Shown here one piece after another: positions 18,733-46,834 of a DNA stretch of 64,000 nt. Under the pieces are notes generated by a model, which was not told the origin of the DNA, did not search any database, and saw only the letters and a program-made list of their open reading frames with translations. The DNA comes from Gracilaria domingensis. Its lineage: Eukaryota > Rhodophyta > Florideophyceae > Gracilariales > Gracilariaceae. Made by a program: the position numbers and the translations under genes. The stretch spans positions 147,056 to 211,055 of the forward strand of contig VCMS01000059.1 of NCBI GenBank assembly GCA_022539475.1, written 5' to 3'. Position 1 is the first letter of the stretch. Each line of letters begins with the position of its first letter.

Positions 18733-18735
18733 GTT

Positions 18736-19592: not shown

Positions 19593-20053
19593 GTTTGGGG
19601 AGCAATTTTGTTATATAGACTATCTGAAATAATGTTTTTGGATGGAAAGCAGAATTCGGAGAAGTATTGTGAGACGGGGAAGATTGATTTGCTTTCTGTT
19701 GTTGCTGATACGTTTGGAGAAACTAATTTTTTTATCTTTCAACAGGATAACGCGCCGATGCATCCATTCCACTGCACTCATAATTGGTTGACTTCGAATC
19801 ACGTCAGGATTCTGACCTGGCCCCCACGTTCGTCAAGTCTCAAAATTGTTGAGAATGTGTGGGCCTATCTGGGTAGAAACGTGTAGATGGGTCACAGGAC
19901 GTTTGAAAATGTTGAGGATCTAAAAAGTGCTATCTGCGAGGCTTGGGCGGCACTTTCGAACGATTATCTATTTAAACTATATATAATAGCATCAAGAGAA
20001 GATGCTTGGTTGTCATGGACAGCAAAGGTTTTGCTACAAAGTACTAAAGATAG
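19593..20053 (+). pseudogene. Tc1/mariner transposase, C-terminal half
   Basis: Right of the LTR a frame reads VWGAILLYRL, then the DDE motif segment FQQDNAPMHPF (second Asp), then WPPRSSSLKIVENVWAYL (third acidic residue, a Glu). A TAG at 19884-19886 is followed in frame by the usual C-terminal end (FENVEDLKSAICEAW ... IASREDAWLS) up to 20053. The N-terminal half, with the first Asp (FSDG), lies at 47692-48189 on the minus strand; the two halves are separated by the inversion. Confidence 0.85.
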
Positions 20054-20076
20054 CTAGCTACGCAATAAAACTTTTC

Positions 20077-20104
20077 TTGTGCGCGTTAAATTTTTGCGCT
20101 CTTT
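20077..20104 (+). repeat. Tc1/mariner terminal repeat, 3' end
   Basis: The 28-mer TTGTGCGCGTT...TTTGCGCTCTTT matches 48313-48340 at 24 of 28 positions. In an intact element the two would be inverted; here they are in direct orientation because of the inversion. Confidence 0.75.
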
Positions 20105-20482
20105 ATAGTAGACAAAACCTGTGTTTTATTGATATGTAGCTATAGACTCCGTGTCGTACAAGTAACGCTTTTTGATCTGCAACGTCGTTGCTGTAGCTAC
20201 AGATTGCCGTGTCTTTTATTGACGTGCAAAAACTACAATCGCTCAAACGCGTTTTTGGCGCTTCCCTGCGCTTTGAATTTCGCGGACTGTATCTTGAAGT
20301 AGACACTGCCGTAGGCGAAACAGAGCTCGGCTTCTTGCGCGGGATTCGAAGAGATTTCGAAATAAACAGCACCCTTTTGAACCTCGGAAAGCATGGCCGG
20401 ATAACAAGGCACAACTTCTCTTCGCAGCTGGCGGCTACTAGGGAATAAACAGTTAACGGCTACTGGAATCCTGCGCACACAA
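20105..20482. other. Intergenic, nothing recognised
   Basis: No convincing ORF or repeat. It probably holds the promoter of the coiled-coil gene that follows. Confidence 0.4.
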
Positions 20483-22045
20483 TTGGTTGCGCGGGGCTTG
20501 CATTGCCGTTGGCAACGAGCCCTCTCTCACGTCAGACGTTCAAAGGGTACAAAGTTAAGCCACCGTCGGCAACCTTTTGAAGCAACCGCGTCCTTCTCCA
20601 CACACCACCAACCCACAGCCCTCGCGCCTTGTGGCGCCACCGCCCCTTTCGCTGCCTTTCCTAAGCTATTTCGTACTCGCCCCATGCAGACGCTCGCGCC
20701 GTGCGAAGGACCACAAAGCCCAGTTCTTACAAGTCTTCGAGAAGTGCCCAAACGGCCTCGCCACTTCGTCTATTCGTCGTCTGCAGTCATGCCGGTTGCA
20801 GACACTGGTCTGGTTTCAGATGATAGTTTTGGAGGCACTTCTTCTGCAATGGAGGCGCCGGATTCATCACTTCCGCTAAAAAGCGAGTATGATGAATATG
20901 AGCATGTTCAACCGCCATCAGAAAACATCGCGGAGACTACAAAGGAGACACCGCAAGCACATTTTGAGGACGAAGCCGTAGAATCAGCGGGATACGAACC
21001 CCAACTAAATGATTCTCACCAATTTTCTCTGCAACCCGATACTCCCATGATTTCGCTGTCAACAACGACAGACACTAGTGAATCGCAGATTCCGGAAGAT
21101 GCCCTCGAACAGGCAGAGCAAGATTTGAGTTTAAACGAGGCAGACTTGCGTACACCTTTGACTTCAATTCCTCAGGCTCCAGCCTCTGATCTCGCGGCGT
21201 CACTCAATCCTCAGGAAGATGCTTGTTCAACATGTCAAGTTATGAGTAACGATAACGATCGACTCACTCGTCTCGTCGCACGCTTACGGATGCGGATTAT
21301 TGAAATTCGAGCAACTTCACAAACCCATGGACAGCGTCTTCTACGAGCAGCATACCAGGATAGGATGCGTGATATGAACAATGAACATGCGCAGAAGACG
21401 GCCGAAATGCTCAACAAACAGAAGACCTGTTTCGAAGAAGAGCTCGAGGCTCTTGAGAAAGAGTCGCACGCCGCTATACACACACTTCACATTCAACTAG
21501 AACGGGAACGTATGGAAAAGGAGAGACTTAAACGCGCCTTCGAGAACGAACGAGATGAAGCGATTGAGAAGACTAATATAACTATGCAAGCTGTGCAACG
21601 AAAAATGGCTCATTTGCATGCTAAGGTTATCCGGTTGGAACGAGAAAACGCTGTCCTTTCAGCCTCCCAGAAGGAAAAACAAGTAATGGTGGAAGTGTTG
21701 GCATCGGCTAGTGCTGCCAGAGATGTCGAACGTCGTGAAAGAGAAATGATTTCAAAGGCTGAACAAGAGGAGCGAAATCGTAAGAATATGTTAATCGACA
21801 ACATGCATGCCGAGATCAAACAGCTGCGTGCCCGCCTCTTTGAAGAGACTGAGTGCAGGAGAGCTCTGCTTAACAAGATAGAAGAAATGCACGACGAAAG
21901 GGAGGATGAGAAAGATAAGCATGCAGAAGATCTCGCCCACTGCAAGAAGCAATCAAAGAAAGAAAACGACCGTCTTGGACGCCTGTTTGCAAGCGTCATC
22001 CAGGATTTCGCCAATGTTCAATCTGACGTATCCACGAATGACTAG
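20483..22045 (+). CDS. Coiled-coil protein, function unknown
   Basis: An ORF of 520 codons; the start is uncertain. The first ~100 residues are Pro/His/Arg-rich and may be 5' UTR. ATGs at 20684 and 20789 (MPVADTGL) are good alternatives. Residues ~110-250 are acidic, Ser/Thr/Pro-rich and look disordered. From ~260 to 505 the protein is a long, almost continuous coiled coil (LERERMEKERLKRAFENE, RLERENAVLSASQKEK, IKQLRARLFEETECRR, HDEREDEKDKHAEDL), with no proline over ~240 residues. There is no motor or catalytic domain. A cytoskeletal or scaffold role is plausible but not shown. No family is recognised. Confidence 0.7.
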   Translation: MVARGLHCRWQRALSHVRRSKGTKLSHRRQPFEATASFSTHHQPTALAPCGATAPFAAFPKLFRTRPMQTLAPCEGPQSPVLTSLREVPKRPRHFVYSSSAVMPVADTGLVSDDSFGGTSSAMEAPDSSLPLKSEYDEYEHVQPPSENIAETTKETPQAHFEDEAVESAGYEPQLNDSHQFSLQPDTPMISLSTTTDTSESQIPEDALEQAEQDLSLNEADLRTPLTSIPQAPASDLAASLNPQEDACSTCQVMSNDNDRLTRLVARLRMRIIEIRATSQTHGQRLLRAAYQDRMRDMNNEHAQKTAEMLNKQKTCFEEELEALEKESHAAIHTLHIQLERERMEKERLKRAFENERDEAIEKTNITMQAVQRKMAHLHAKVIRLERENAVLSASQKEKQVMVEVLASASAARDVERREREMISKAEQEERNRKNMLIDNMHAEIKQLRARLFEETECRRALLNKIEEMHDEREDEKDKHAEDLAHCKKQSKKENDRLGRLFASVIQDFANVQSDVSTND

Positions 22046-22737
22046 CAATACTCGAAAGTTTTTTGAACGTTCTCACTCGAGGATTTTGGAAGTGGATAAG
22101 CTTTTGTTGAAATGAGTTTGTTGTGCTCATACGACGAAGCACTAGAGATGGACGAAGCGCCTGTAAATCAGTAGATTAGAGCTTAACAAGTCTGTGACGA
22201 CTAGGTAACTTGTGTATAGACTTTCTGCCTTTGGAGCGCTCTTCCACGGAGGATCCTAAACCGAGTTTTACGCTCCCAGCCGAAAACAGCACGAAATGGC
22301 CTTTAAGCATATATTCTTTTGGTCCTTGCTCGGCCCATGTAGAACGTCCCATTTTTGTTTTGTTCATTAGAGACCCCTGTTCCAGAACACGACATGGCAT
22401 TCTACTTGCGGGCTTTTGGGGCATATTCACCAAGATCACATCACGGTGTTCAATTCTTTTCCCGATGTGACACCCGAAAACACCAGTGGGGCCTATGTTG
22501 AAAGCGGAGACAAAACGAGCAGATCTTGAGTTTAATAACTGTATACCCAAGGGTACACTGCTTTAGGTGATTGACACTCTGGATTCAGTCGTTGCGATCT
22601 CCGATGTGAATTTAGATAAAGGCAAAATCCCCCTGAGAGGTTTACTGTGAAACGCATATTCCGGAGCGTTTGAAAGTGCTAAACCCAGTTTCCTATCGCG
22701 TGAAGCAATCATCAGTTCGAAGAAAGTGTAACTCAAA
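22046..22737. other. Intergenic; a doubtful 124-codon minus-strand ORF
   Basis: A minus-strand ORF at 22176-22550 has a mixed, protein-like composition (VFGCHIGKRIEHRD, MLKGHFVLFSAG) but no recognised family. I leave it uncalled. The rest should hold the end of the coiled-coil gene and the promoter of the decarboxylase. Confidence 0.35.
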
Positions 22738-24374
22738 ATGAGTGCCTATAAGGTTCCTTCATTTCAGACAGCAATTCTCTTGAACTATCAGCGACAGAAG
22801 CTCGGTGGCCCATTCACTCGGCTTCGAGCGTGTGCTCGTAGTGCAACCGATACGGAAACTGTGAGCTCTCGAAAGGGCAAGCGGGAAGTAGACACGCCGC
22901 TCATCTCAACTCTTCACCAAGAGTCAAGCCGTGTGCGCGCCAATTTTTTCTGCCCCGGCCACAAGCAGGGAAGGAGATTGCATTCTTCTTGAGAAGTTAA
23001 CGTACTCCAATGTTCTGAGAGCTGACCTTCCAGAATTGCCTGCTCTAGATAACCTCTTCGCCCCGGACGGAGTAATTGAAGATGCCCAGAGAAGGGCCGC
23101 AGATACTTTTACGAAGGATGGATCGCGAATATGGCAAACTCACTTCCTCGTGAACGGAACTACGTGCGGTATAGAAGCAGCTATTCTCGCGTGCTCAAGG
23201 CCTGGCAGAAAGGTGGTCTTACCTCGGAATGCCCATCAGTCTGCAGTGCATGCCTTGGTGTTATCTGGTGCAATACCAGTTTTGGGTAGCTCCTCGCTAT
23301 GACTCAAAATATGATCTTGTACATGGCGTAAGCGCAGATGATGTTGCAGAAGCACTGGAGCAGCACATAGGCGAAGTGGATGCAGTGTTACTGGTTTCAC
23401 CTACGTATCACGGAGTATGTTCTGATATTGAGGCAGTGGCAATGGTTACCCATGAATTTGGAGCCAGACTCATCGTAGACGAAGCTCATGGGGCCCACTT
23501 AGCCTTTCATACCCTCTTACCAAAGTCTGCAACCGACGAACATGCTGATATTGTCATTCAGAGTACTCACAAAACTTTAATGGCAATGTCGCAAGCGGCC
23601 ATGATGCATGTTCGAAGATCATCAGTAGATGTGCGTAGAATCCGCACTGCACTACAACTGGTCCAAAGCACAAGCCCAAACTATTTGCTGCTTGCGTCTT
23701 TAGATGGCACTCGTGCATTAATGGAGGAACAAGGAGAAGAGCTGATGTTTCAAACTATTTGCCTTGCCCGGAATTGTGCAATACGAGTCGCAAATATAGA
23801 AGGATTCGAAGTATTAGGTATCAACGGGTCGGGTATGGGGAACACCACATCTTTGCTTCATGACTTAGACCCTACTAGAGTTACAGTGCTGTTACCGACA
23901 GGAATACAAGGCTACGACCTTGATGAATACCTGATTGCTCACTTTGGTGTCTATGCTGAACTTCCATCCTTCCGCCATCTAACATTCGTATTCTCTCCCG
24001 GAAATACACAAAGAGAGGTTGACGTATTGGTATCAGCATTATCAGCGTATGAAATCCAAACCCACGCTACCAGCACTCCAAGGCTGATATCCAAAATGAC
24101 CTGGAGCAGGAATGGTACAGCAGGCCGAACAAACGGGATAACTCCACGCCAGGCGTTCTTTGCTGATTATGCGAAGGTGAGCATGCAAGAGGCTATCGGT
24201 TGCATCAGTGTCGAGACGCTTTGTCCTTATCCTCCCGGAATCCCCATGATTGTTGCCGGGGAACGAATCTCTCGCGAAAGCGTCGATATTCTGCAAGCAA
24301 TTTTGAAGGCGGGAGGTAGCATATCTGGAGCAAGTGATGAAACCCTTGCCTCAATTCGAGTCGTTGCCCAGTAG
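22738..24374 (+). pseudogene. Orn/Lys/Arg decarboxylase (PLP, fold type I) with two frameshifts
   Basis: Three overlapping frames together make one protein of about 545 residues. Frame 1 (22738 to ~22975): a basic, Ser/Thr-rich N-terminus that could be a plastid transit peptide, then FFCPGHKQG. Frame 2 (~22976-23285): LRADLPELPALDNLFAP, NGTTCGIEAAI, PRNAHQSAVHALVLSG. Frame 3 (~23286-24374): PRYDSKYDLVHGVS, VSPTYHGVCSDIE, DEAHGAHL, then STHKTL with the PLP-binding Lys, and a shorter C-terminal part ending in ASIRVVAQ. This is the short form found in cyanobacteria and plastids; it would make cadaverine, putrescine or agmatine. The substrate cannot be told. Both breaks need a +1 shift and neither leaves room for an intron. 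Everything else is well conserved, so recent decay or sequence errors are both possible. Confidence 0.88.
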
Positions 24375-24420
24375 TATAGAACCAACTTAAGATAACAAAG
24401 AAGGCACAAGATTGCTCCTG

Positions 24421-25296: not shown

Positions 25297-25299
25297 ATG

Positions 25300-27522: not shown

Positions 27523-28743
27523 CTACAAATTGTTCATTGTCATATCCTTCTGTAGTACCGCAGAGTTTTTCGGTATCCAATCAACCCCATCCTGAACGAC
27601 GTCATTCAAGAGCTGCTCTGATATTGCCAGCGGATGCGGGTAAGGCCAAGTGCCGACTGCCGTCACGGACGTATACCCACGCCTCACAGCATCCAAATCC
27701 GATCCTTTGGAAAACATACCATCTGGAGAGGCGCTCCACATCTTAATGCCAACCGTATCTTCAGCATGACCATCTTCCCCGCTGGGAACATACTCAAGCT
27801 GAACCACAGAACGATACAACAATGAGTCTAATCGAGTCATCTCATACTTTTCGTTCCAGACCTTAGGAACGTTGATGTTGAACACGACATCCCCTCGTGC
27901 GAAAGCATCCCGAACGCGCTCATTTATGCTTCGTGTCTTGTTGCGAGCAATTGTACGAGAAGATAATGCCGCCTCAGGATTGAGTCGTCCCATATCCGGA
28001 GGAACTCTGGGTAGGCTCTTAAGCAAAACTTCAGTCATTTCGACAGTGGCAGCAATCGCTCGAGCGAACACCTTCTTTTGAGAAGTAACACTTGAGTCTC
28101 TCTTGTGCAGGTCTACAGATGAAGCCACGGCAGGGATGCCATACATAGCGGCCTGACGCGCCCCAGCGAATGTTCCAGAATACAATACATCACTACCCAT
28201 GTTCTGACCATAGTTCACACCAGAAAGTGTCAGACAGGGGTACACTCCTAACTTTGCGAGCAAGCCAGTGTGTGGCTCAATTGCAGTTATGATACAATCT
28301 GCAGGGGTTCCTTTGTCGACTGAGAACACTTTCAGTATTCCCTTTATTGTACCGTTTTTCTCGGCGTGTCCATACCGCTTTTCGTACTCAGGGTGTCGCC
28401 GTAATGTAAGAGGCCTTCCAAGAGTTATACGCTGGCTGCAGGCAGAATTGTTCTGCCCAGGAGCAACAACAATGACATTGTGACCATTCGCAACGAGAGT
28501 TTGCGCGAGTGGGAGTATTAACGCATCTTCGGGATGAATTCCATCGTCGTTAGTAAGTAGGACAGCCCGTTCAGGGCCATATCGGGTTATTGGGTCAGCC
28601 GACATTGTCAAAGAGAAGTTGCTGCTCACGATCGGAGGACGCGTTCGGGAGAGCTTATAGTTGCTTCTTGAAGTCAAACGACTTTCAAGTATGTCTTTGA
28701 TCGAAGGGCTTCGAAAAGCAAAACAGCCAATCGCAGAAGTCAT
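27523..28743 (-). CDS. SurE-like 5'-nucleotidase / acid phosphatase
   Basis: A 406-codon ORF. The SurE fold is clear: the metal site LLTNDDGIHPE near residues 61-71, VVAPGQNNSACSQRITL (the Ser/Asn ligands), the block LSGVNYGQNMGSDVLYSGTF, then GARQAAMYGIPAVASS. The enzyme removes phosphate from nucleoside 5'- or 3'-monophosphates with a divalent metal. About 46 residues precede an internal Met (MSADPITRYGPERAV). This stretch is Ser/Arg-rich (SRLTSRSNYKLSRTRP) and could be an organelle transit peptide. The C-terminal ~100 residues are longer than in bacterial SurE and resemble the eukaryotic and plant forms (TSVTAVGTWPY). It diverges from SEC11. Confidence 0.92.
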   Translation of the reverse strand: MTSAIGCFAFRSPSIKDILESRLTSRSNYKLSRTRPPIVSSNFSLTMSADPITRYGPERAVLLTNDDGIHPEDALILPLAQTLVANGHNVIVVAPGQNNSACSQRITLGRPLTLRRHPEYEKRYGHAEKNGTIKGILKVFSVDKGTPADCIITAIEPHTGLLAKLGVYPCLTLSGVNYGQNMGSDVLYSGTFAGARQAAMYGIPAVASSVDLHKRDSSVTSQKKVFARAIAATVEMTEVLLKSLPRVPPDMGRLNPEAALSSRTIARNKTRSINERVRDAFARGDVVFNINVPKVWNEKYEMTRLDSLLYRSVVQLEYVPSGEDGHAEDTVGIKMWSASPDGMFSKGSDLDAVRRGYTSVTAVGTWPYPHPLAISEQLLNDVVQDGVDWIPKNSAVLQKDMTMNNL

Positions 28744-30306: not shown

Positions 30307-31251
30307 TTAAGTTTCTTGAACTTCTTCGGGGGTTTTCGCGTTGATTTGGATTGCGTGAATGTATCCTGCGCTCATCTCATCTGCTAACAAAGTATAAATG
30401 ATCCGATGTCTTTTCACTTGGCTCAAAGACTTAAACGCATCTGAAACGATATAAACGGCGAAATGTGACTCCCCATTGTATCCCTTTGAACCAGCGTGCC
30501 CTGCATGCTGAGCAGAGTCATCACGAACGTGCACGTCAGTGGGCTTCAACGTCTGTAGCTTTTTCATGATCGCTGAATAGACTGGACGATTTGGATCGGG
30601 TGAAACCCCATTTCCTCTCTTTGAGTCTTCCAACGGGATATCTTGTGAGGAGTTCTCGCTTTCTTGTGACAATGCCGCCACGTCTTTCTTAATCTTCGCC
30701 AACATATTGATAAAACCGTTATTCCTACTCGGCGTTAGTGATACTGCGAGGCCAGAAACAGATATAAAAGTGGGACTGACGGCTTGTATTTCGCTTGGGG
30801 TTGCACCATCAAGGCCATTAATGAGCAGCGAAAGGAGTCCTTTGGTTAATTGCGAATCAGAATCGCCTTGCAATCGAATCAATCCCTGATTATCCATAGA
30901 AACTTTAACGTGGACAACGCTAGTACAGCCATGAACTCTGTTTTCATCAACTTTGAGGGATGAGTCCATAGGTGGTAGCTGCTTTGCGAAAAAGAGTAAC
31001 TGCTGGTACCGCAGCTTAGGATCGGGTACCATGGCGAAGGAATTAACATACTTTTGAAGGGCAGGTGGAAGATCCAAAGATTCTCTCTGTGCCACCATCC
31101 TGACCGTCACGTAAGCAGGCCTACCGCACCGAAAGCCTTTCCGTGGCCGGTTGCGGCTGACCGAGGACAATTTAGAATGCTTTGACCAAAGTGACGTCAC
31201 AGGTGCTGACACGAAAGCATGGAGACGAGAGCCTCGTAATATGTTATCCAT
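30307..31251 (-). CDS. SUFE1: SufE-BolA fusion, plastid Fe-S cluster assembly
   Basis: A 314-codon gene. Residues 1-55 are basic and Ser-rich (plastid or dual transit peptide). The SufE domain (about 60-195) has LRYQQLLFFAKQLPPM and VHGCTS with the sulfur-accepting Cys at about residue 109. A linker rich in Ser, Asp and Asn follows. The BolA domain (about 225-305) carries VHVRDDSAQHAGHAG, ESHFAVYIVSDAF and VKRHRIIYTLL. SufE takes persulfide sulfur from the cysteine desulfurase and activates it; the BolA part binds monothiol glutaredoxins. This fusion is typical of Archaeplastida, which supports a photosynthetic host. Confidence 0.94.
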   Translation of the reverse strand: MDNILRGSRLHAFVSAPVTSLWSKHSKLSSVSRNRPRKGFRCGRPAYVTVRMVAQRESLDLPPALQKYVNSFAMVPDPKLRYQQLLFFAKQLPPMDSSLKVDENRVHGCTSVVHVKVSMDNQGLIRLQGDSDSQLTKGLLSLLINGLDGATPSEIQAVSPTFISVSGLAVSLTPSRNNGFINMLAKIKKDVAALSQESENSSQDIPLEDSKRGNGVSPDPNRPVYSAIMKKLQTLKPTDVHVRDDSAQHAGHAGSKGYNGESHFAVYIVSDAFKSLSQVKRHRIIYTLLADEMSAGYIHAIQINAKTPEEVQET

Positions 31252-32075: not shown

Positions 32076-34199
32076 CTATGCTGTCCTCATGGTACTCGAT
32101 AGATTTGGTATATGCTTGTTCCGAATGTTTGTATTGGCAAGTATAACATCTCTTAGTCGGACTTGGTGCCTCTCGATTTTCCTCACAATTGGGAGCTTCC
32201 GCATGAAGCTTCCCCAGCGCAAGTTCTCGTAATAAAAACGGTCGCCATCTCGGAGCCTCTCAAACTGAGCAGCCACTACCTTGTGGAAAAATGGTCCCAA
32301 GAGTGACCCAGGCAGAGGCTTCTCTGCCAGACCACCGATAAACGGATCAATTCTAGATGAAGAACTGTACAGGCGAAGGAGTCGAGTTCTGAGTGAATCT
32401 GGAATGTCTCCCAGACCTTGACCGTTATTCTTCAACCCATATGCCTCTCGTGCCGCAGTATAGGATGGCAAAGTGTGATCCCGCCCTCTTTGAATGTTCA
32501 GCGCGGGCAGGTCCAGAATCCCTCTTTTGCCAGGATTGAAAAGGAAATCCCGCACAGAGTCAGTATGTTCTAGATCCACCGCCAAAGCTGGTTGGTCCAT
32601 AGCCCCAAGCAACCAACTTTCAACGTCAAACTCAGAAAACTTATCCGGGTTGAAAAATAAGTCTTGCAGTCGATGACTTCTTCTATTGTTTTCCACGTCG
32701 CGAGTATGGATAATGTCGCGTATCGTTGTATGACCCCAACGAAATGCTGCCGTTGAGAACATAATATCGATGGATGTATCTTCAAATGGGTTATATCCTT
32801 TGTACGGTTTCAACGCTCGGCGTCCCAGCACCAAGGGGAGGTATTCGTTGTACAAAATGTTTTGTATCTCTGCGATAACTATGCGACGTGCTTGTTGGTA
32901 TAGCCATTCATCCGTTTGTCTTACCTTCCTCTCTTGACGCAGGGCCTCAATCAACTCGTCACATACTCTATTGTGTTCTCGAGCAAACAGGGTGTGCATT
33001 GAAGTCAAGACAGCGTTCTCATTAGCTCTGATATCACCCGCAGCGAAAAGCTTTGTGTTCTTATGTTGATTTGCATTCTCGATGATGTACGGCAGAAAAG
33101 CTTTGGAATTCCTTGGCAAGTTCTCTTGACCATCACTGACATCCATTTGAAGCTTTCCATCTTTAAACGCTCTTAACGCCAGCGCACGATCGTTATCAGA
33201 ACCATAGATACCGCTTCCATCGATGAGAGAGGTTATCCTGTTGAATTGCCGTTTCTCCCCACCACTCGGTTTGTATTTCTGGTTGCAGCACTCTCTCGGA
33301 AGCAGTGGAATAGGATCTGAACGCAAGAAGTGCATTCTTCCATTTCCAGCATCACTTGGAGGCATTTCGAAACTACCGTTCTTGAGAGAAGTCTCCCCAG
33401 ATGGTGTGAGAACAATATCGTGGTCAATGAATTGACCGAATATGACAAGCAGGAAGTTGACTTTGTTTGGGGCGAAGTTAGTCTGAGCTACTTTGTTCGA
33501 TCTTGCCTTGCAAAGAGTATTGCTAATAAGCCTTGGATTGGGAAGGCCATCCGATATGCTCATACCAGGGGCCTTCCACGGGCGTTGTTGAAGCGAGTTC
33601 GTTATTCCGGCAGTTAGCCGATGAGGATTGTTGCAAACACCCGTAATTGTCGCGACCGTGCGGCTGCAACGACCTGGACGAAGCACCACTTGTGCATTTT
33701 CTAACATAGTTCTAACAAGAGCTGTAGCATAGATATTCCTGGCTCGATTCAACTTTGTTGAGGTCCGAATGCTCTTCCCCTCAAACGTCATGACCAAGAA
33801 TCTTCTTCTCTGTCGAGTGTGTGTCTGAACCGTAAACTTGGCACCTTTCATCGGCACAGGAAATGTAGCTGCGTCATGGTCAAGAATTTCGAGTTCAATG
33901 TAATCTCGTCTGGGGTTATGTCGAACAAGACGAATTCGGGCCTTATGAGACCTGCCTCTGGTGATCTCGGCTTCATTCTTGCCAACGAGTTCATATCGGC
34001 TTATATAGTTTGCAAACAAGAGCGGTATTCCCTGAGGGAAACGCATGTAGACGTTGGGCATGTTTCCATTTGCAATACGGCGGCGGTAGGTAAACGAATT
34101 CACCAGAAACCCGGGGGTTAGAAGAGCTCCATTTGAGCACGCAGAAAGATAGAGAATGAACGCTGTGCACAAGACAAAGAAGTCCCGTTTTAGCTGCAT
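32076..34199 (-). CDS. Animal-type haem peroxidase (peroxinectin-like), secreted
   Basis: The ORF is open to 34331, but the ATG at 34197-34199 begins a classic signal peptide (MQLKRDFFVLCTAFILYLSA), so I choose it (707 residues). Distal haem site FGQFIDHDI (His about residue 260), SLIDGSGIYGS, catalytic Arg region LFAREHNRV, proximal His FRWGHTTI (about residue 491), LNIQRGRDH near the C-terminus. It belongs to the peroxidase-cyclooxygenase superfamily and would use H2O2 to oxidise halides or phenols, outside the cell or in the secretory route. The ~190 residues before the peroxidase domain are basic and have no recognised domain. No membrane anchor follows. Candidate roles: oxidative defence, cell-wall cross-linking or halogenation; the sequence does not decide. 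Confidence 0.92.
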   Translation of the reverse strand: MQLKRDFFVLCTAFILYLSACSNGALLTPGFLVNSFTYRRRIANGNMPNVYMRFPQGIPLLFANYISRYELVGKNEAEITRGRSHKARIRLVRHNPRRDYIELEILDHDAATFPVPMKGAKFTVQTHTRQRRRFLVMTFEGKSIRTSTKLNRARNIYATALVRTMLENAQVVLRPGRCSRTVATITGVCNNPHRLTAGITNSLQQRPWKAPGMSISDGLPNPRLISNTLCKARSNKVAQTNFAPNKVNFLLVIFGQFIDHDIVLTPSGETSLKNGSFEMPPSDAGNGRMHFLRSDPIPLLPRECCNQKYKPSGGEKRQFNRITSLIDGSGIYGSDNDRALALRAFKDGKLQMDVSDGQENLPRNSKAFLPYIIENANQHKNTKLFAAGDIRANENAVLTSMHTLFAREHNRVCDELIEALRQERKVRQTDEWLYQQARRIVIAEIQNILYNEYLPLVLGRRALKPYKGYNPFEDTSIDIMFSTAAFRWGHTTIRDIIHTRDVENNRRSHRLQDLFFNPDKFSEFDVESWLLGAMDQPALAVDLEHTDSVRDFLFNPGKRGILDLPALNIQRGRDHTLPSYTAAREAYGLKNNGQGLGDIPDSLRTRLLRLYSSSSRIDPFIGGLAEKPLPGSLLGPFFHKVVAAQFERLRDGDRFYYENLRWGSFMRKLPIVRKIERHQVRLRDVILANTNIRNKHIPNLSSTMRTA

Positions 34200-35139
34200 G
34201 TTTGGGGATAAGCAAGATACGCTCGATATTCGTGGAGCAGGGACCGGTAGGTGTTCACAGCTGTGAAGGGCAATCGCGCTACACGAGTTATCCGGGATGT
34301 TATGTTTACTATGTACATTGTATGAAGGCACTAGGTTTGCATTTGATACTAGGGAACATTAATGTATTAAGGCAGAAGTAGTACAGGAATAGGAATAGGA
34401 CGGCAGGTGGTTCTGCACTAGAGAAATATGTACGTAAGAAGGAGTGCATGCACGTCAAAAGTATTGTTTATAGTATAAACAATACTTTGTACCTGCGTTA
34501 AGAGGATGCATTCTGGAAACACGCTGGGGTGAAACAGGTAGGGACGTGGGAGGTTTAGGTGCGGGCTAGTGGCGCCGTGTCGTTTACACATGTTTAGTGC
34601 ACGCTGATACTATCTTACAATTCAATGTGTTGGCTTTGCAACGTTGCCCAAGTTGTTAGTGGATTCGTCGAAGCGAATACCAGCGCACGACGCTTGGATC
34701 ATTTAAAAACAAAGGACGTTGGACGCAGTTTCGACGTATTTTATGAAGTGATCGCAGGGTTTGATGGGTTAATGCAAGGTTAAAGGAGGGCTAACATGTT
34801 AGCAGTCAAGGCAATGCTAAATGTGCGGAGCGCTCGCAGAGAAGCGCGGTAGTGGAGGTACTGCAGCTGAACTGTACAATGTTGGTTGCTTTGAAGCAAT
34901 TGAGTGCAAGGGTTGGATTGATCGGACACTGCTGCCGGTATGAGTATGGGGCAGTGCTAAGAACTGAATTGTTAGAAGGGTGGTGAGAAATGATGACGAC
35001 GTGTCTCTTGTGTGTTTCGCAGGGGATGCGAAAGAGCCAAAGCGAACAATGGAAGATGTGTTTTTCTTTTCTTGTCGCGGTGAGCTGCCAAGGGCGTCGA
35101 CGGCGAACGCAAGGCAGGGCGGTGGCAGGTGTGGGTTGT
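34200..35139. other. Intergenic, nothing recognised
   Basis: Upstream of the peroxidase. A TATTGTTTATAGTATAAACAATA palindrome lies near 34461-34485. No gene seen. Confidence 0.4.
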
Positions 35140-35795: not shown

Positions 35796-35844
<49 letters not shown>

Positions 35845-36451: not shown

Positions 36452-39400
36452 ATGCATGCTGTACATCGAGCTTCTCTCGCTACAGTGCCGCCCGAGCTTC
36501 CGCCGCTCATGCCGCCGCATCCCACCCAGGGCGGTCCGCCTTCTTCCGCTGCGCACGCGCCTTCTTCCGCCGCTCGCGCTTCCAATGCTGTCCATAACGC
36601 CGATCCAAATGCCGCTTCCGACCCGCCGCACCAATCAGGCCAGGAGTCTTACACCACCGCCAAGACCAAACCGAACGATGATATCCTCAAGAACTTGAAG
36701 TTGCATCCCATTCCGGGAGCCCTCTACGGACCTCCTGAAGGCGCCCTCCCGAATACCTATGTGGGCAGCTATACCGTGTACGGACTTATTGGCGAAGGTG
36801 CATTTGGAAAGTAAGTGTGCCCCCGCATTCTAGACAGCTCCCCTATCATTGCCGTTCTCGGGTTCCTTCGCGTGCTAACCTCGTTTGTTCCTCGCCCTCT
36901 CCCTCTCGTGTCTCACTCAGGGTAAAAGTGGCTGTACACAAGCCCACAGGCATGCGCGTTGCAATCAAGATTATGGAGAAGAGCGAAATCCGCGCTCACG
37001 AACTCGCTCATCAAGTGCGCCGCGAAATCTATATTATGCGCAGCTTGAAGCATCGTCACATCGTCAGAATGTTTGAAGTGCTCACCTCCGACAAGAGATT
37101 GTACATTGTCATGGAGCTTGTCAACGGTGGCGAATTATTCGAGCGCATCGCCAAAGGTCGTCTGGATGAAAATATTGCCCGCCATTACTTTCAACAACTT
37201 GTGGATGGTGTTCACTTTTGCCACAAGAAGGGCATTGTTCATCGCGACCTCAAGCCAGAGAACCTTCTCGTCGACGAGAGTGGCAATATTAAGATTACCG
37301 ACTTCGGTTTCTCCTCCATGAAGGGTATGGATGTGCACACAGGCCTGCTGCATACCCAGTGCGGAACGCCTGACTACTGCGCCCCAGAGATCATTGACAT
37401 TGCACAGGAAGGCTACACTGGATCCAAGGTTGACGCGTGGTCATGCGGTATTATTTTGTACGCTCTACTTTGCGGTCGTCTTCCTTTCTTGGAGCAAGAC
37501 ACTGAGAAGCTTTACGATTTGATTCTTGCTTGCAAGGTCAAGTATCCGTCTTACATTTCTCGAAACGCCCGCGACCTGCTCGAAAATCTGCTCATTCGAG
37601 ATCCCAACAAGCGTTTTGACCTTCCTGACGTGAAACGTCATCCCTGGTTTTTGGTCGACTACGATGGCGATGATGCCCGATTTTTGAAGAAGACTCCATT
37701 TTTCAGAAGGTCTAGGAAGGACACATCCACCTCTAGGTCCACGTCGCCACTTACGAGTGCAACTGGTACAGATTCCTCTGGAGGACCTTCTACGAGTAAC
37801 ACCGCCCCCACTACCAGTGCCTCAAGATACTCATCGGGCTCCGACAGTCGAGATATTGCTGGTAGTCAGTCACGAACCGAGCCGCTGACCTCTAATGAGA
37901 GAAGAAGGGCACAAGGCTCTCCTATGCATTTGGTGGACGCTGGCAACCCCCGAAACATTTATTCACAGAGTCGACCGCCATCTGGGTCAACTAGATATAG
38001 AGACGAGCAGCCTTACGGGCCGCCCTCTCCATCGCCGCTCTCATCGCTACACGAACAAATGCGAGCACCAACTCCTCCGAGTCAGGAGGTCTTCACCAGA
38101 GTACACGACCGACCAGTCACTCCCGCTAGGCGGCAAGCACCGGCTTCGACTGCTGCCGCGTTCAAGGCTGCAGCTGCTGCAGCTGCTAGGTATGCCCCTG
38201 AAAATATGCCACAGTCACCCAATCTAGGAGGCGGCAAGACATATCATTCGCATTCTCCCAGCCGAAGATCTCCGGCATCTGGTTCACTGACCCCAATTGT
38301 GCCTACCGACGCTGCCAATTCGCATCAACAGCCATTGGCTGGCTCCTATTTGCTGAACAGAGCAGCCCCTACTGCTTATCCGGGTTCAGAAATGCCACCT
38401 CGTCGCATAGAAGAAGGGTCCACAAGTGAAGAGGATAGCGTCGAGGATTATGAAGAAAAACCTGCTCTTCCCTTGGAGATGCCTCTCGACCCCCGTCAGG
38501 CGTTGTATGGAAAGAATAGTGATCGTCATCATTTACCGGCATTGCCTCAGCACGTAGCAGCTCGCCAGAGATCCGAACTCGTGGGCGCAACGAGGCAGAG
38601 TCCAATTCCGGCGTTTGCTAATCCTCTTGAGAACGGTAGCTCTTCGCTGTCTGCTCTCCCACGGCCCCATAGGTATGGACGGGAGCCTCCAAACCATGGT
38701 AGTTTGAACGATCCGAGGCCTCCCCGAGCGGCCCGGACTCCAGATGTACCTTCATCTCCCTCGATTGTATATTCTCCGTCAACCGTGAGTGGTCCGTCGT
38801 CTTTCGACCGTTTTCGTTCGGTTTCTCCGGGCTTTGGGAACATCAGACCTGGTGCGCCGAATGAAGGGGTACCAACCAGTCCTGATTTGCTTCGTGGAGG
38901 TCTTGGTGGCGGAAGTGCAGCATGGTATTCTGCCGGACGCTCCACACCAAACGGATATTCCGCCCCAAGAGAGGAATCCAGCGCTCCGTCTTTGAGTGCA
39001 AAGTCTCTCCAAGCTGAGATTATTCTTCGACATCATTGGGGAATGCTCACGAAGTGGAGAGGGTCATCAGAACCTGTGCCCAGAGAATTGGCCATGGAAC
39101 TTCGAAAGGACATGATGCTGACAGTTGAGGAACTGAAGCAAGTAACGAATTTGGAAGACAGAGCTAACCTATTTAGCAGTTTTCTGCACATGTTCGAGCA
39201 GTTAGCCTTGGGCGAAGCACTGCCTCAAAGTGGCGACAGTCGTCGACTTCATGCTGAGGGAGATGGGGAAGGGCGAGATGAAGGGCACACGAATATGGGA
39301 GATGGTCGTGTTGGAAACATTCGTCTGGCAGCTACTGATATATCTAGCGAAGAAGAGCCAATGTCATGGAGCCCGGTAGTGGTGGAGGCAAGTGGACCGC

Positions 39401-40614
39401 GTGGTAGTGACATTATGCGCCGTCGTGAGATGTCAGATTTGCTTAACCAATGGATTCACCGCACTGACTACTACACTTCTGGTGGGGCAGAAAATCTAGA
39501 AGGCGAAGATGGGAACCTGGGTTATGACCTGTCCGATTTACAACGAATGATGCGAGATCATCACAGTGGACGAGACGAATCAAATCTTGCGGACGAAATG
39601 CTCCGCATGATGAGCAACGCGGAGGACAATGCAGCATTCGTTCCCCCATATGGATCAGGAAATGGCCCCACTTCTTCGACTTCGAATTCTGCTACTCATA
39701 CCCAGCGACATGGTGATCAATACAACTGGAGGTATGGTGGGAGCGGGGCGACTGCGAACTGGAACAGCCAAAGCAATGGAAGAGCTGCGGGTACGGGGGC
39801 CATTCGAAATATATCGAACAATTCCTCTCTTCCCCCAGAATATGTACCTGGTAGGTTCAGGGAATCCAGCACCAATGTTTCCAGAAGGGGGCGCAGCAAC
39901 AACGAATATGCGAATCAGGGTTCCGTTGTGAATGGCAACGAGGGTTTGCGAAGGAACGTAGGAGTGGAACATTTTGACGGCCCCGGTGGAGATGACGGCT
40001 CACATGAGATATCCGGAGGCGGTGGCAGATCAAGTCTTGACCACAGAAAACGAAAGAGTAATATGGCGAATTCGATGGGCATGCATGACGTGGAATACTA
40101 CACCTCTGATCGCCGGAACGGCATGGCCCACAAACTATTAGGTGTCCTTCACAACATGAAGGCGAAGAACCACCGATTAGGGGAGCACCATGCGCAATTC
40201 CGCTCACCGTTACCAACCGATGCTATAATAAGAATACTAGCAACGGTTTTAAGAAACATGGGAGCTGATGTGAAAGTGAACAAAGATACAAGGAAGAAGA
40301 TCAAATGTGAGAAATCCATGGGTGGGTGGAAGCTTCACGCAGGTATAGAGGTTATCGAGTCTGAGGACGGTCTTCGCACTGTGGCGTTCAGACGTTCCAA
40401 GGCGGACCGAGGCAAAACGGATACCGAATCCTTCCATAGATTTTACCAGCAAGTTCGCTTGGATTTTGTACACGAAGCAGGGATTCAGTTTCCATCGAGC
40501 AGACTTCAAACGTCAAGCACTGCCAGGCGAAAGCGTGGTAAGATGGTAGATCGGGAACGTAGTGCTCAGCACCCAGACCCTGTCCCCAGCGGTTCTAACA
40601 AGAATACGGGATGA
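36452..40614 (+). CDS. Large SNF1/AMPK-type Ser/Thr kinase with KA1-like tail, two exons
   Basis: Exons 36452-36810 and 36921-40614 encode 1,350 residues. The N-terminal ~100 residues are Pro/Ala/Ser-rich. The kinase domain (about 105-365) has LIGEGAFGKV, VAIKIMEK (ATP Lys), HRDLKPENLL (catalytic loop), DFGFSS and a T-loop QCGTPDYCAPE with the LKB1-type Thr just before Cys-Gly. A Ser/Pro/Gly-rich linker of ~750 residues follows, with a helical block in the middle (LRHHWGMLTKWRG, ELRKDMMLTVEELKQVT). The end (about 1215-1315) resembles the KA1/AMPK C-terminal domain (ILATVLRNMGADVKV, WKLHAGIEVIES, FYQQVRLDFV). Such kinases sense energy or stress. The linker is far longer than in plant SnRK1 or animal AMPK alpha, so orthology is open. 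Confidence 0.92.
36811..36920 (+). other. Intron of the SNF1-type kinase (110 bp, GT-AG)
   Basis: Donor GGAAA|GTAAGT inside the glycine-rich loop, acceptor TCACTCAG|GGTAAAA. Splicing gives the expected GEGAFGKVKVA. Confidence 0.93.
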
Positions 40615-41213: not shown

Positions 41214-41218
41214 GACAA

Positions 41219-41316: not shown

Positions 41317-41326
41317 GGTTATGGGC
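41317..41326 (+). other. Copia primer-binding site, matching the initiator tRNA anticodon arm
   Basis: GGTTATGGGC directly follows the LTR. Its complement GCCCATAACC is the anticodon region of eukaryotic initiator tRNA-Met, as used for half-tRNA priming by Drosophila copia. The ATG of the ORF lies inside it. Confidence 0.75.
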
Positions 41327-44300
41327 ACCAGCGCGCCACAGCGCAACACCTCTACAAGTCAAAGCTCGATCCACGGTCCGAGCATCGCTCCCGTGTCCAC
41401 AGAGCATTGCTCCCAATCCACGCCGCTCACTACACGCCAAAAACGCTACCACTACCGCGAAACGCGCACGATCTGGCTTGATCTTTGGCGTCAAGTACAA
41501 CAAGAGATTGGTCACTCGCCACACCCGTCAACACTGCCAAGAAAAATGGAATCGAGTTCGATTCCCCACACACAAGGGTCCCTATCCTACCCTAAGTGGC
41601 GATTTACAGAGGAACTCATTGAACTGACAACGGAAAACTACTACCAGTGGTGGCAAAACTTGCAAGATATTCTAACAGAACACGACTATATTGAGCTCAT
41701 CAATGACTCATTCACCCCGCAAACAGCGGAAGAACAGAAGGCAATTGCCAGTATACGACGAGTTATCACAAAGAGCATCACACAAGACGTCCTTAATATG
41801 ATTGCCGACCCTACAATCTTTACATGCTCACCATCACAAATTGTTAAGACGATTAAGGACACATTCGACTCTCAAGCCACGAAAGACTACTACAGCCTTT
41901 CCCTCGAAGCCACGAATCTACGCAGGACAGGCACCATCACGGAGTACATTAATCAACACATTGCCATCCGCCGCAAACAAATCGTAGCACAAACGCCAGG
42001 AATCTCCGACGAAAGGATGACAGTCACTTTTATCTTACAAGGCCTGGTATCGGACGACAGGTTCTCGCAGAGAGCTATTTCCATGATGATCGACAACCCG
42101 CCTCGAACCATTCGCGAAACCCAACACCGCCTCGAACAATATGAAAACCTTCTTTCTCAGCAAACCCCAATGGACCTCTCTGGCACACGACCGTCATCCA
42201 CACAGCACCGCCCGAGCGGCAGTTCTTATCGGGGAGGGCGCGGTCGTGGTCGCGGACGATATGGAGGATCCAGCGCGCGAAGTCTTCGCAATGCTATACT
42301 CGACCTAACCAAGAAAATCGATGATATCAAACCACCTCGGCCACGCAACACGCGTGGTCGTTCCACCGCGAAGCAGGCCTCCGCCGCAGACGACGCTATC
42401 GCCGCTGAAATCGCTCAGGCCATGAAAGCACTCGAGACCCTTCCCGAAACCGACACTCCAGACCCCCAACAGTGTACGTACTCACTGGACTCGGGCGCTC
42501 ACCCGAGCATCGTATCGCACTGCACAGAAGACGAAACTGACCTCGAAACCCCAATTCTGACACACACCGCATCACCCACACCCTTACAGACAACGAAGAG
42601 GGGCACTCTTCGAATGATCAGTGATTTGGGGGCCTCCGTCAACATCCCCACACTCATCAACCGAAATGTTAATGGAAACCTCATTTCCGTCCACTCGATC
42701 ACGCAAAACCTCGGTCCCGTCATATTTACACCACACAATGCATACATTCTCAGTCGCACCATCCCAATTAAAGTACTTGGCACCGCTTCCTGGAACAACA
42801 ACACCTACACACTCAATCTAAGATCCCCTTCCAGCACCGCCAAAACCGTCCACTCCGAAAGCTCCGAAACGCATATTCCGCTCCACAACTCCAAACCAGA
42901 GACCATACCAGCCCCACTACCCCGCAGTCAAAACAACCGCGTCACCTCAACCCCGAAAACCCGTTCCAAGCGCTCATTCCGTCCGCATCCCATGGCGCTC
43001 ATCACGACACCTTCCCAAAACGAACAACCATCCGACCCCGAGCTCCACAAATGGCATTTGATATATAACCACGCCCCGCCCACAAAACTGGCACGACTTG
43101 CCTCCCTCAAAATCATTCCCAACCCGCGCCTTCGACATGTTGGCCAACGAACCATCACATGTAGCGGATGCAAGCAAGGACGCCTCAAACGCCAACCGCA
43201 CAAGAAAGCCAAACACCAGTACCCCCTCGGGAAAGCACTAACATCCGACATATGCGGCCCCATGCCACACACGTCAACACACCACAACCTCTACTTCATC
43301 ACATTTCTTGAATTATACAGTCGATACCTGCTTCTCTACTTCAGCCAAAACCGACAAGGTTTGTCCAAAATCCTCGCGTTCGCCCTACGCTTCTTCAAAA
43401 ACGCAACAGGTACGTCCCCCACCATATTCCTCTCCGACAACGCGAAAGAGTACTTGAGCAAAACGCTGCGACACGTACTTTCCGAACATGGCACAACCCA
43501 AGTTACCTCCACCGCTTATACACCGCAACAGAATGGCATTGCAGAGCGTGTCAATCAAACACTCTGCTCCGTTGCGAGAGCCAACCTCATCCACAGCGGC
43601 CTTAGCGATGAGTTCTGGGAAGACGCAATCCGCGACACGGCTTTCAAGTACAACCTGACCCCACACTCAGCCACCGGCAAAACCCCATACGCAGCCATAT
43701 TCGGCTCCACGGCCAAACCTCGAGCACTGCATGCCTTTGGCCAGCTCGGCTACGCCTTACTCCCCACCAGTACTCAGTTACAGTCCAAGCTCGACAGCAG
43801 GGGAATACCCTGCCGATACATGTATGGAGTGACTCCCCAGAACATAGTCGTGATGGCACTCGGCACCGGCCAATACATACAAATACCCGCACACAACTTT
43901 CATCCTTACTCCCGAACCACAGACCCCGTGGCATCACAGTCCAACGCGTTTAAAAACCACGTGCCGCATCGCACACCAAACAAAGTAACAAACACCACCC
44001 CCGCACCAACGAGCAGAAAGCAGGCCACCAAATACCCGGACGCACGAGCATGGTCACTAGCACACAACACAGAGCTCGAAAAGCTCGACAAGCTGCAAGC
44101 CATAAAATGGCTGCCACAGTCACAGCTCCCAAAACGACTGATCCCATTAACCATGACCTACAAATACAAACGCACACCAGAAGGAGACATTATCAGTCGC
44201 AAGGCCCGATGCTCCGTACGCGGAGATAGAATGATACCGTACAAGGACTTCAATCCAGAAGAAACAGCTGCACACCTCTCCCAAAAAGCCACGGTCCGAC

Positions 44301-45595
44301 TGCTCTTCGCTATCGCTGCACAACACGGACTGGAACTCGAACACTTCGATATAACTTCCGCCTTCACGCACGAAAAGTACCGACACACGAGTCCAGTCTA
44401 CGTTAGACAACATCCAAAATTTGATGGCACGTACACACATCCAGAACCAGGCGGGCAGCTCATCTTAAATCTATATGGCACCCCTCCAGCCGGCCACTAC
44501 TATCTCGAAGAAGCATGGAAGTACTTACAGTCACTCGGATTTGAACAATCGCCCGACGATCCAGCCCTTTTTGCTGCCCGCGACCCTCACAATCAATACA
44601 CTTTTGTAGTGCTGAACATCGACGACTTCGTTATTGCTGCTACAAGCAAACATAGAATCGATAAGCTGTTCTCACAACTCCAGCAAAAATACACCATCAA
44701 ACGACTAGGCACTCCCGCCCAATATCTCGGATGGAAAATCACCAAAGACGACAACGGCGCAATCGCTATCTCGCAACCACACACTGTGCAGCAGATCCTC
44801 ACACTGCTGGGCCTCGAAAAGGCCAATGGCAAACGCACTCCATACACGTCCGGTGTCGGCTACCACCCGCCCGACGCAAATGACGTTCCGTCGACGAAGT
44901 CAAAAAGTCTATATGCCCAGGTGGTCGGCTCCCTCCGATGGCTTTCAGACTGCACAAGGCCTGACATTGCATTCGTCACCTCCAAATTGGCCCTTGCATT
45001 AACCAACCCTACTGCACGCCATTGGCAACATCTCAAGTCTGTAGGCCGATATCTCAAAGCAACTGCTACCCTCGGGCTGTACTACCCACGTAGTGTCTCA
45101 GTGAACCAACTAACGTCATACTCCGACGCAGACTTTGCGGCCGACACAACCACGCGCTGCTCCACATCGGGGGCCACGCATTTCTTGAACGACAGTCTTG
45201 TCGATTGGACATCTAAAAAGCAGTCTGTCCCCGCTCTCTCTACGTGCGAGGCTGAATACTATGCAGCCACTGCTGCAACTCGGGACGCTGTGATGTTCAG
45301 AAGAATCCTTCAATTCTTGGGCTTTGCCATGAGAAATCCAACGCCAATGAAAGTGGACAACCAAGCAGCAATAGGCGCCGCTCTCCAACAAGGCTCGACA
45401 AAGCGGCGAAAGTACCTTGACCTCAGGCACCACTTTCTGCGACACCACATTCGCAAAAGAAACATCAAGCCAGAACACGTCCCGTCTGCTGCACAACGAT
45501 CGGACATCATGACAAAGCCACTCCGACCACAACAATTCGAGCACAACATACGCTTGCTGAACTTACGGCCCGTGCGACACATCCGCAAGCCCTGA
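41321..45595 (+). CDS. Copia Gag-Pol polyprotein, intact (1,424 aa)
   Basis: Gag-like region (about 90-300) with YYQWWQNLQDIL and TITEYINQHI; then an RGGRGRGRGRYGG basic stretch in place of a clear CCHC knuckle. Protease YSLDSGAHPS. Integrase zinc site (HKWHLIYNH...CSGCKQGR) and core D (SDICGP), D (SDNAKEYL), E (NGIAERVNQ). Reverse transcriptase with DITSAFTHEKY and VLNIDDFVIA (NIDD instead of the usual YVDD). RNase H with SYSDADFAADTTTR, STCEAEYYAA and KVDNQAAIGAA. Domain order integrase-RT-RNase H defines copia. There is no stop or frameshift. The ORF begins 5 bp after the LTR, so there is no real 5' leader. Confidence 0.96.
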   Translation: MGTSAPQRNTSTSQSSIHGPSIAPVSTEHCSQSTPLTTRQKRYHYRETRTIWLDLWRQVQQEIGHSPHPSTLPRKMESSSIPHTQGSLSYPKWRFTEELIELTTENYYQWWQNLQDILTEHDYIELINDSFTPQTAEEQKAIASIRRVITKSITQDVLNMIADPTIFTCSPSQIVKTIKDTFDSQATKDYYSLSLEATNLRRTGTITEYINQHIAIRRKQIVAQTPGISDERMTVTFILQGLVSDDRFSQRAISMMIDNPPRTIRETQHRLEQYENLLSQQTPMDLSGTRPSSTQHRPSGSSYRGGRGRGRGRYGGSSARSLRNAILDLTKKIDDIKPPRPRNTRGRSTAKQASAADDAIAAEIAQAMKALETLPETDTPDPQQCTYSLDSGAHPSIVSHCTEDETDLETPILTHTASPTPLQTTKRGTLRMISDLGASVNIPTLINRNVNGNLISVHSITQNLGPVIFTPHNAYILSRTIPIKVLGTASWNNNTYTLNLRSPSSTAKTVHSESSETHIPLHNSKPETIPAPLPRSQNNRVTSTPKTRSKRSFRPHPMALITTPSQNEQPSDPELHKWHLIYNHAPPTKLARLASLKIIPNPRLRHVGQRTITCSGCKQGRLKRQPHKKAKHQYPLGKALTSDICGPMPHTSTHHNLYFITFLELYSRYLLLYFSQNRQGLSKILAFALRFFKNATGTSPTIFLSDNAKEYLSKTLRHVLSEHGTTQVTSTAYTPQQNGIAERVNQTLCSVARANLIHSGLSDEFWEDAIRDTAFKYNLTPHSATGKTPYAAIFGSTAKPRALHAFGQLGYALLPTSTQLQSKLDSRGIPCRYMYGVTPQNIVVMALGTGQYIQIPAHNFHPYSRTTDPVASQSNAFKNHVPHRTPNKVTNTTPAPTSRKQATKYPDARAWSLAHNTELEKLDKLQAIKWLPQSQLPKRLIPLTMTYKYKRTPEGDIISRKARCSVRGDRMIPYKDFNPEETAAHLSQKATVRLLFAIAAQHGLELEHFDITSAFTHEKYRHTSPVYVRQHPKFDGTYTHPEPGGQLILNLYGTPPAGHYYLEEAWKYLQSLGFEQSPDDPALFAARDPHNQYTFVVLNIDDFVIAATSKHRIDKLFSQLQQKYTIKRLGTPAQYLGWKITKDDNGAIAISQPHTVQQILTLLGLEKANGKRTPYTSGVGYHPPDANDVPSTKSKSLYAQVVGSLRWLSDCTRPDIAFVTSKLALALTNPTARHWQHLKSVGRYLKATATLGLYYPRSVSVNQLTSYSDADFAADTTTRCSTSGATHFLNDSLVDWTSKKQSVPALSTCEAEYYAATAATRDAVMFRRILQFLGFAMRNPTPMKVDNQAAIGAALQQGSTKRRKYLDLRHHFLRHHIRKRNIKPEHVPSAAQRSDIMTKPLRPQQFEHNIRLLNLRPVRHIRKP

Positions 45596-45612
45596 CGACG
45601 ACCTGCGCTCAT

Positions 45613-45621
45613 CAGGGGGCG
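45613..45621 (+). other. Copia polypurine tract
   Basis: CAGGGGGCG directly before the 3' LTR. Confidence 0.7.
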
Positions 45622-45794
45622 TGTTATCACGCACCGAACGGTGCGCTCATGCCAGATAAGCGCCGATCGCCGCCAGCCAAACATTTGTTCTCACGCTGTC
45701 ACCACGCCATCGAGTGGCCACGTAGCAACCCCTAATAAAGGGCTTGCCCGCCGGCGACCGCCGGCAGGGCGGCCATCGATCTTGCCTCTTCTCA
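45622..45794 (+). repeat. 3' LTR of the copia element (173 bp)
   Basis: TGTTATCACG...CCTCTTCTCA, followed by the duplication GACAA. Contains CGCCGGCGACCGCCGGCAGGGCG hairpin-like sequence and an AATAAAG signal. Confidence 0.93.
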
Positions 45795-45799
45795 GACAA

Positions 45800-46165
45800 T
45801 AACCCGTGATGCGCTAAAGGGAGTGAATGACATATTCTCACTGAGGCAAAAATGGCGCAATTCTTCACAGGACATGTGCCATCACTTCACCCTGTGGCCT
45901 CTTATCTGAATCATAAAACGTTGCGGTGCACCTGTGGTACGAACGTTAAGAAAGACTGCAACCATGTGGTCTTACGATGCCCATTATCGAACATGTCTCG
46001 ACGATTCCTCCTGGCTGGACAGCCAAACGAAGCCAAATCATGAGTGCAGTACCTGATAAGACATAAGCCACAGAACTTCTTGGCCTTTCTAAAGAGAGAG
46101 AACCTCCTCTGAGGCTCTGCTGTAGTTTAGGAATAAGAAACTACTGTCCAAAATGAAGAAGAAGA
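45800..46165 (+). pseudogene. LINE 3' end, copy 1, with GAA tail
   Basis: The frame LTEAKMAQFFTGH ... CTCGTNVKKDCNHVVLRCP matches the LINE tail at 7.7 kb. After a frameshift near 46040, YLIRHKPQNFLAFLKREN follows. The element ends in a (GAA)n tail around 46153-46165. The copia insertion (GACAA) removed its left part. Confidence 0.8.
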
Positions 46166-46393
46166 AGACATATTCTCGTCAAAAACATCTTTTTGAAAAA
46201 GCAGTTAAACTTTATTGTGGAACGTTTCGTTTGAAGAAAAGCATTCTCTCAGGAGGTGGACGTCACTTTCTTAAACACAATCTCTTTGGGCAACTTGTGT
46301 CACAACGCGATCATTGTCGTTCAACATCCGCAAGCTAACTGTTTCTCTCCGGAACAAACGATTCCACGCGGTGCAAACCTGTCTGCCTGTTTC
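46166..46393. other. Spacer between two LINE ends, nothing recognised
   Basis: A 61-codon plus-strand ORF is open (46153-46338) but is unlikely to be a gene. Confidence 0.35.
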
Positions 46394-46653
46394 CTTCTTC
46401 TTCTTCTTCTTCTTCTTTAATGCGGACAACATCCTCTAATTTCTAGGATGTAGTAAAACTATCCTTACAGGAAGTTTTCTCTCGTCAGGAAGGCCAACAA
46501 TCTATGTGGGTTTTGTCTAATCAAGTCGGAAAGAGTAAGGTTTTGACGCTCAGCTACGGGTGGAAGCGTTTCTCGACGTGTAGCATTTGTCAAGGGACAG
46601 CGCAGGACTACGTGGTCTGCATCCCGTTTGACGTTTGTGCCGCATGTGCACCG
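46394..46653 (-). pseudogene. LINE 3' end, copy 2, with GAA tail
   Basis: On the minus strand: RCTCGTNVKRDADHVVLRCP, then LIRQNPHRLLAFLTRENFL and a TAA at 46465-46467. A short 3' UTR and a (GAA)n tail (46394-46417, CTT on the plus strand) follow. It is open for all visible codons. Confidence 0.82.
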
Positions 46654-46660
46654 TTCAGTT

Positions 46661-46677
46661 CTCTCTCTCTCTCTCTC
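46661..46677. repeat. (CT)n microsatellite
   Basis: Uninterrupted CT units between two LINE ends. Confidence 0.85.
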
Positions 46678-46695
46678 TTTTATAGGTATCCTAGC

Positions 46696-46829
46696 CTAAT
46701 TACGGCATAGTATAGAGCGTTTCTGATGAAAGTAACGCTCTCTCACTAAGAAGGCCAGTACCCTTTCAGGCCATTTTCTAATGATATCTTCAACAGCTAA
46801 GCCCAGACGTTCTCGCAGAGCAGGCAGAC
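46696..46829 (-). pseudogene. LINE C-terminus displaced from 7216-7845 by the inversion
   Basis: On the minus strand a frame of 44 codons ends at TAG 46698-46696 and includes DIIRKWPERVLAFLVRERYF, matching the ends of LINE copies 1 and 2. It starts directly at the AGAGG flank of the lone LTR. Joined to 7845 with one copy of CCTCT, it continues the LINE frame exactly. Confidence 0.88.
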
Positions 46830-46834
46830 AGAGG

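Follow-up and report, generated by a model that had tools for sequence, protein, structure and literature searches.

A 27,242-bp segment in the genome of this red alga has very probably been turned round by one crossover between two oppositely oriented LTRs, as judged from sequence, these being the 5′ LTR of a full-length Ty3-type retrotransposon (element B) and a lone LTR. The window analysed, by which we mean the whole 64-kb stretch of DNA, corresponds to positions 147056-211055 of contig 59 (C59) in a 77.9-Mb assembly of 680 contigs, and contains no N. In the course of events that we propose, element B, a young Ty3-type element, would have inserted into a LINE copy and generated a CCTCT duplication, and a second family member, now represented by the lone LTR, would have inserted in the opposite orientation into a Tc1/mariner copy with duplication of CAAAC. 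A crossover between the 5′ LTR of element B and that LTR would then have reversed the intervening 27,242 bp, swapping one 5-bp flank per insertion. The reading of the region as a single inversion, already put forward in a preliminary description of this DNA, is borne out by the agreement of the exchanged duplications, the opposite orientation of the LTRs and two independently repaired repeats.

Results

Exchanged flanks and the elements that carry them

The 5-bp flanks of element B and of the lone LTR, read directly from the window, are mismatched when each insertion is taken singly and become perfect duplications after exchange (Table 1), and flipping 19593-46834 repairs both insertion sites. 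All four flanks had been given in the preliminary description exactly to the base, and its further claim that the flip yields two perfect 5-bp duplications is confirmed by the flanks together with a chance estimate, as the window's own 5-mer frequencies give a probability of about 1.1e-6 that both exchanged 5-mers match (0 of 1,000,000 random quadruples). The two breakpoints carry homologous copies that face opposite ways, their target-site duplications are exchanged, and the breakpoints are continuous after the flip without loss or gain beyond the duplication, as seen in paralogue alignments and register tests; these are among the features by which an inversion through ectopic recombination is recognised.

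Table 1. Features of the window, in window coordinates.
Feature	Position	Strand	Remarks
LINE left arm	7216-7845	+	RNase-H to C-terminal part of ORF; ends in CCTCT; abuts element A at 7215
Flank CCTCT	7841-7845		3′ side of element B; reverse complement of 46830-46834
Element B	7846-19592	-	full-length Ty3-type LTR retrotransposon with chromodomain; paired LTRs
Element B 3′ LTR	7846-8702	-	adjoins polypurine tract
Element B 5′ LTR	18736-19592	-	one of the two putatively recombined LTRs
Flank GTTTG	19593-19597		5′ side of element B; reverse complement of CAAAC at 47692-47696
Inverted segment (putative)	19593-46834		27242 bp; host gene island and Copia element inside
Tc1/mariner transposase, C-terminal half	19593-20053	+	decayed; starts at VWG block; end coordinate from earlier annotation
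Coiled-coil ORF	20483-22045		no Pfam family; name from earlier annotation
OKR decarboxylase	23229-24374		Pfam
SurE	27523-28743		Pfam
SufE-BolA	30307-31251		Pfam
Haem peroxidase, animal-type	32076-34331		Pfam
Protein kinase	36817-40614		Pfam
Copia-type pol	41321-45595		Pfam
LINE right arm	46662-46829	-	in-frame continuation of left arm, same LINE copy
Flank AGAGG	46830-46834		beside lone LTR
Lone LTR	46835-47691	+	857 bp; second putatively recombined LTR; not adjoined by any element interior
Predicted crossover interval	46869-47289	+	lone-LTR coordinates; LTR positions 35-455; 46868 edge weak
Flank CAAAC	47692-47696
Tc1/mariner transposase, N-terminal half	47692-48189	-	paralogues on C2, C174 and C6; end coordinate from earlier annotation

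Element B carries RT_RNaseH, Integrase_H2C2, rve and Chromo domains (Pfam) within 11044-14760, its RVT_1 match reaching only E 0.0028, under the cut-off for that family. RNase H, integrase and chromodomain lie in one pol frame and, with the paired LTRs and the 5-bp duplications of the family, identify it as a Ty3-type element, the two LTRs of which differ at one of 857 sites (position 34). The lone LTR has the same length, is inverted relative to both LTRs of element B while 99% alike, and is adjoined by neither a polypurine-tract nor a primer-binding side, as expected of a solo LTR; it had probably already reached this state when the crossover took place.

Two further elements are found nearby. 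Element A, a second Ty3-type element, occupies about 141968-154270 of the same contig and ends at window position 7215, its LTRs spanning, when counted from the start of the window, about -5088 to -4273 and 6400-7215. It has no matching duplication (TTTTG on the left, GAGAT on the right), and a search with two exact patterns gave 0 matches to a partner edge for these discordant flanks. Element C has a second type of LTR, at 52175 to about 52918 on the minus strand, the 3′ part of which is ~98% like that of element B and the U3 of which is unrelated.

Repair of two interrupted repeats

The restored left join, in which 7216-7845 leads into the reversed sequence running down from 46829 and one CCTCT is kept, aligns without gaps to a LINE copy on C53 at 99.7% over 798 bp (2 mismatches in the 630 bases of the left arm, 168 of 168 bases identical in the right arm), and to two copies on C36 at 98.3% (gapless) and 91.5% (gapped). 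When 13 registers are compared with C53, 160 of 160 bases agree at register 0, as against a fraction of at most 0.30 in the twelve neighbouring registers. The frame of the left arm, in which RNase_H is matched at E 0.0075, under the curated cut-off, is open through 7844, and the ORF is open across the restored join. The gapless C53 join and register 0 thus bear out the earlier claim that the LINE ORF cut at 7845 runs on in frame into the right arm. The right arm had also been likened to two other LINE copies of the window, and this stands at the level of protein, where it matches 46566-46468 at 48% (E 1e-7) and 46044-46100 at 53% over 19 aa (E 0.036); beside this second match, at 45840-46007, the left arm has a match of 41%. 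It does not stand at the level of DNA, where comparison finds no second copy in the window.

The restored right join, in which the sequence from 19593 on, reversed, leads into that from 47697 on, is spanned over 928-965 bp by Tc1/mariner copies on C2, C174 and C6, with 85-86% identity; a more remote copy, on C11, matches at 66% over 563 bp. Agreement with the C2 copy peaks at register 0 (0.68), falls to 0.51 at +1 and does not exceed 0.29 in the other registers. The DDE_3 match of 19593-19886 (E 0.00041) is under the curated cut-off; the joining of the two transposase halves at the VWG block, as described earlier, has the backing of the paralogues on all three contigs. In the paralogue alignments both restored junctions are gap-free within 40 bases on each side, and the LINE and Tc1/mariner paralogues align to the present joins only as far as the breakpoint.

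Target-site duplications across the family

A perfect 5-bp duplication is usual in the family of element B. Our tally covers 35 full-length copies from elsewhere in the genome, each read at its two outer edges. LTRs on one strand that lay about 10.2 to 12.5 kb apart were paired to make a copy, with interiors left unread, and a tandem pair on C30 was counted as one copy; copies with an unreadable partner edge, at C366 (38.9 kb), C355, C226 and C469 (no LTR edge found) and C308 (all N), were left out. Identical 5-mers flank 24 of the 35, among them the copies on C16 and C48, which have the same flanks and may represent one site. The flanks of the C204 copy and of element X on C232 agree once a 1-bp indel is tolerated, and nine copies are discordant even then, namely the second of those on C109 (4 of 5 bases match), elements X and Y on C541, and those on C21, C30, C37, C39, C651 and C525. 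Matching 5-mers also flank the solo LTRs (3 of 3), two of which (C16 and C6) have the same flank pair. Several discordant copies have a flank in common with another scaffold, and discordant and cross-scaffold flanks together suggest some assembly errors at this LTR family.

The full-length copies on C651 and C525 have the same upstream flank as each other and combine two U3 types, one in the 5′ LTR and the other in the 3′ LTR; they are either recombinant elements or misjoins. Three LTRs stand in a row on one strand at C30:149050-170282, ~10.2 and 11.0 kb apart, a tandem with a common LTR as unequal crossover would leave. A second reciprocal inversion, between C541 and C232, was considered and rejected, as element X in C541 is followed on its 3′ side by GTTGC where AAACT is predicted. 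The 5′ flank of element Y, AAACT (C541 and C232), is that found on the 3′ side of the C366 copy, the 3′ flank of element Y in C541 is like that of element X in C232, and C541 contains a 3.2-kb run of N; C541 is probably a chimeric scaffold, its flanks fitting the C232 and C366 copies better.

The LTRs that probably crossed over

The lone LTR differs from both LTRs of element B at positions 456, 458, 824, 828 and 841. The crossover had been placed between 46868 and about 47290 in the preliminary description, and the upper bound holds, with all five of these sites lying from 47290 on. The lower bound is weak because it is set by a single base, position 34, where T is found in the 5′ LTR of element B and in 0 of 37 other copies. 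Typing of the putative chimera uses five sites for the 3′ part and one informative base, position 34, for the U3 side, and the exact point of exchange would fall between them; un-crossing the LTRs would erase the single difference between the two LTRs of element B.

Position 569 is C in element B, the lone LTR and element C. Among exact 34-mers (n=216) the C allele is found at 6 places, 4 of them in this window, as against 210 for T, and in the copy nearest to the lone LTR, on C366, a T at 569 is the sole difference. One simple crossover is not enough to account for this site, since the closest copies of the lone LTR carry T; a small conversion patch or shared ancestry would explain the pattern. 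As the C allele is rare and also present in the LTR of element C, position 569 was dropped as a crossover marker.

Alternative explanations

Two perfect duplications would likewise result, by sequence logic, if the lone LTR had exchanged with the 3′ LTR of element B, inverting ~38.1 kb that includes the interior of element B, which would then originally have resided in the mariner copy and the solo LTR in the LINE copy. We regard this as very unlikely. The 3′ and 5′ LTRs of element B have in common all five alleles absent from the lone LTR, which confines a 38.1-kb crossover to the last 16 bp, as against 421 bp of crossover room under the 27.2-kb model, or ~26 to 1 against the larger exchange. 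Position 828, moreover, is C in both LTRs of element B and in 0 of 37 others. The 27.2-kb model is preferred because of these U5 variants.

Inverted repeats are a classic source of ambiguity in assembly, and the assembler may have crossed the segment between the inverted LTRs the wrong way in an organism that is itself non-inverted. At least one scaffold of this family, C541, looks chimeric with its run of N, 1-bp indels fail to account for the mismatched flanks of nine of the 35 other copies, and element A, on the same contig, is also without a matching duplication. However, one of the two joins crosses just 857 bp, and only 456 bp separate the unique flank from 47290, the first LTR base that firmly tells the copies apart; reads longer than ~0.5 kb could contradict the flip. 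The assembly of 11-kb near-identical elements without N suggests that long reads were used, and would sit poorly with absent or faulty reads over so short a distance, as a flip demands. A search of the assembly for an alternative haplotype found none with any of four probes. The SurE gene has 1 place in the assembly and no second, and for each mariner arm no further place of full length was found. With the left mariner arm, the next-best hit extends over 703 of 808 bases at 86% (shorter pieces elsewhere reach up to 91%, and one 27-base piece 100%); on the right mariner side one 98% match covers just 900-1304 of 1304. On the Copia/LINE side no second full-length place is present among the 40 of 331 candidates that were scored. 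An assembly flip is thus unlikely in our judgement, and we infer that the segment was turned round in the organism. A match of flanks by chance, or through the polypurine tract, with no exchange at all could draw on the partial likeness of the upstream flank of the lone LTR to the tract that precedes 3′ LTRs (9 of 20 bases), but both junctions restore independent repeats in register and the estimate given above for the 5-mers alone is so low that we consider its probability negligible.

Genes within the putatively inverted segment

The host gene island from the coiled-coil gene to the kinase had been described as turned round as a whole, which the proposed inversion of 19593-46834 supports. 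Its SufE-BolA protein has 80% identity to that of Agarophyton chilense and 77% to that of Gracilariopsis chorda, which points to a probable red algal host of the Gracilariaceae. Both breakpoints lie inside transposon copies, no host gene seems to be interrupted, and because of this position no functional consequence is seen; a phenotypic effect of the inversion is unlikely.

Discussion

Ectopic recombination between inverted transposon copies is a well-known mechanism, of which the present inversion is a clean new example, with an LTR crossover that would have reversed a block of host genes in a red alga resolved at the level of bases. Among the matches listed, no title or opening of an abstract presents a published LTR-mediated inversion in a red alga. 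Exchanged 5-bp duplications provide a simple test that is free of any reference, and would allow such events to be counted genome-wide and assembly errors to be flagged. A broader reading, in which this family is reshuffling the genome now and LTR crossovers are a main, possibly still segregating, source of gene-order change, arises from the nine of 35 copies with discordant flanks and from C232 and C541, between which one 1.5-kb segment may differ in its arrangement; we hold it to be unlikely.

In yeast, rearrangement through recombination between dispersed copies of the LTR retrotransposon Ty1 is described in two reports (PMC3102749, PMC9879454); the present case comes from a red alga. Inversions between human and chimpanzee are ascribed to retrotransposon copies in a further study (PMC2603318), as here, but the copies named are L1 and Alu and not LTRs. 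Inversion 2z3 of Drosophila buzzatii is reported to stem from ectopic recombination between opposite copies of Galileo, with exchanged duplications and chimeric copies (PMC2775673). Galileo belongs to the DNA transposons and makes 7-bp duplications, and there the non-inverted chromosome was sequenced (PMC2775673), whereas the present case concerns a Ty3-type LTR, 5-bp duplications and a 27-kb segment. The two are nonetheless alike in that opposite copies of an element stand at the breakpoints and the target duplications are exchanged between them.
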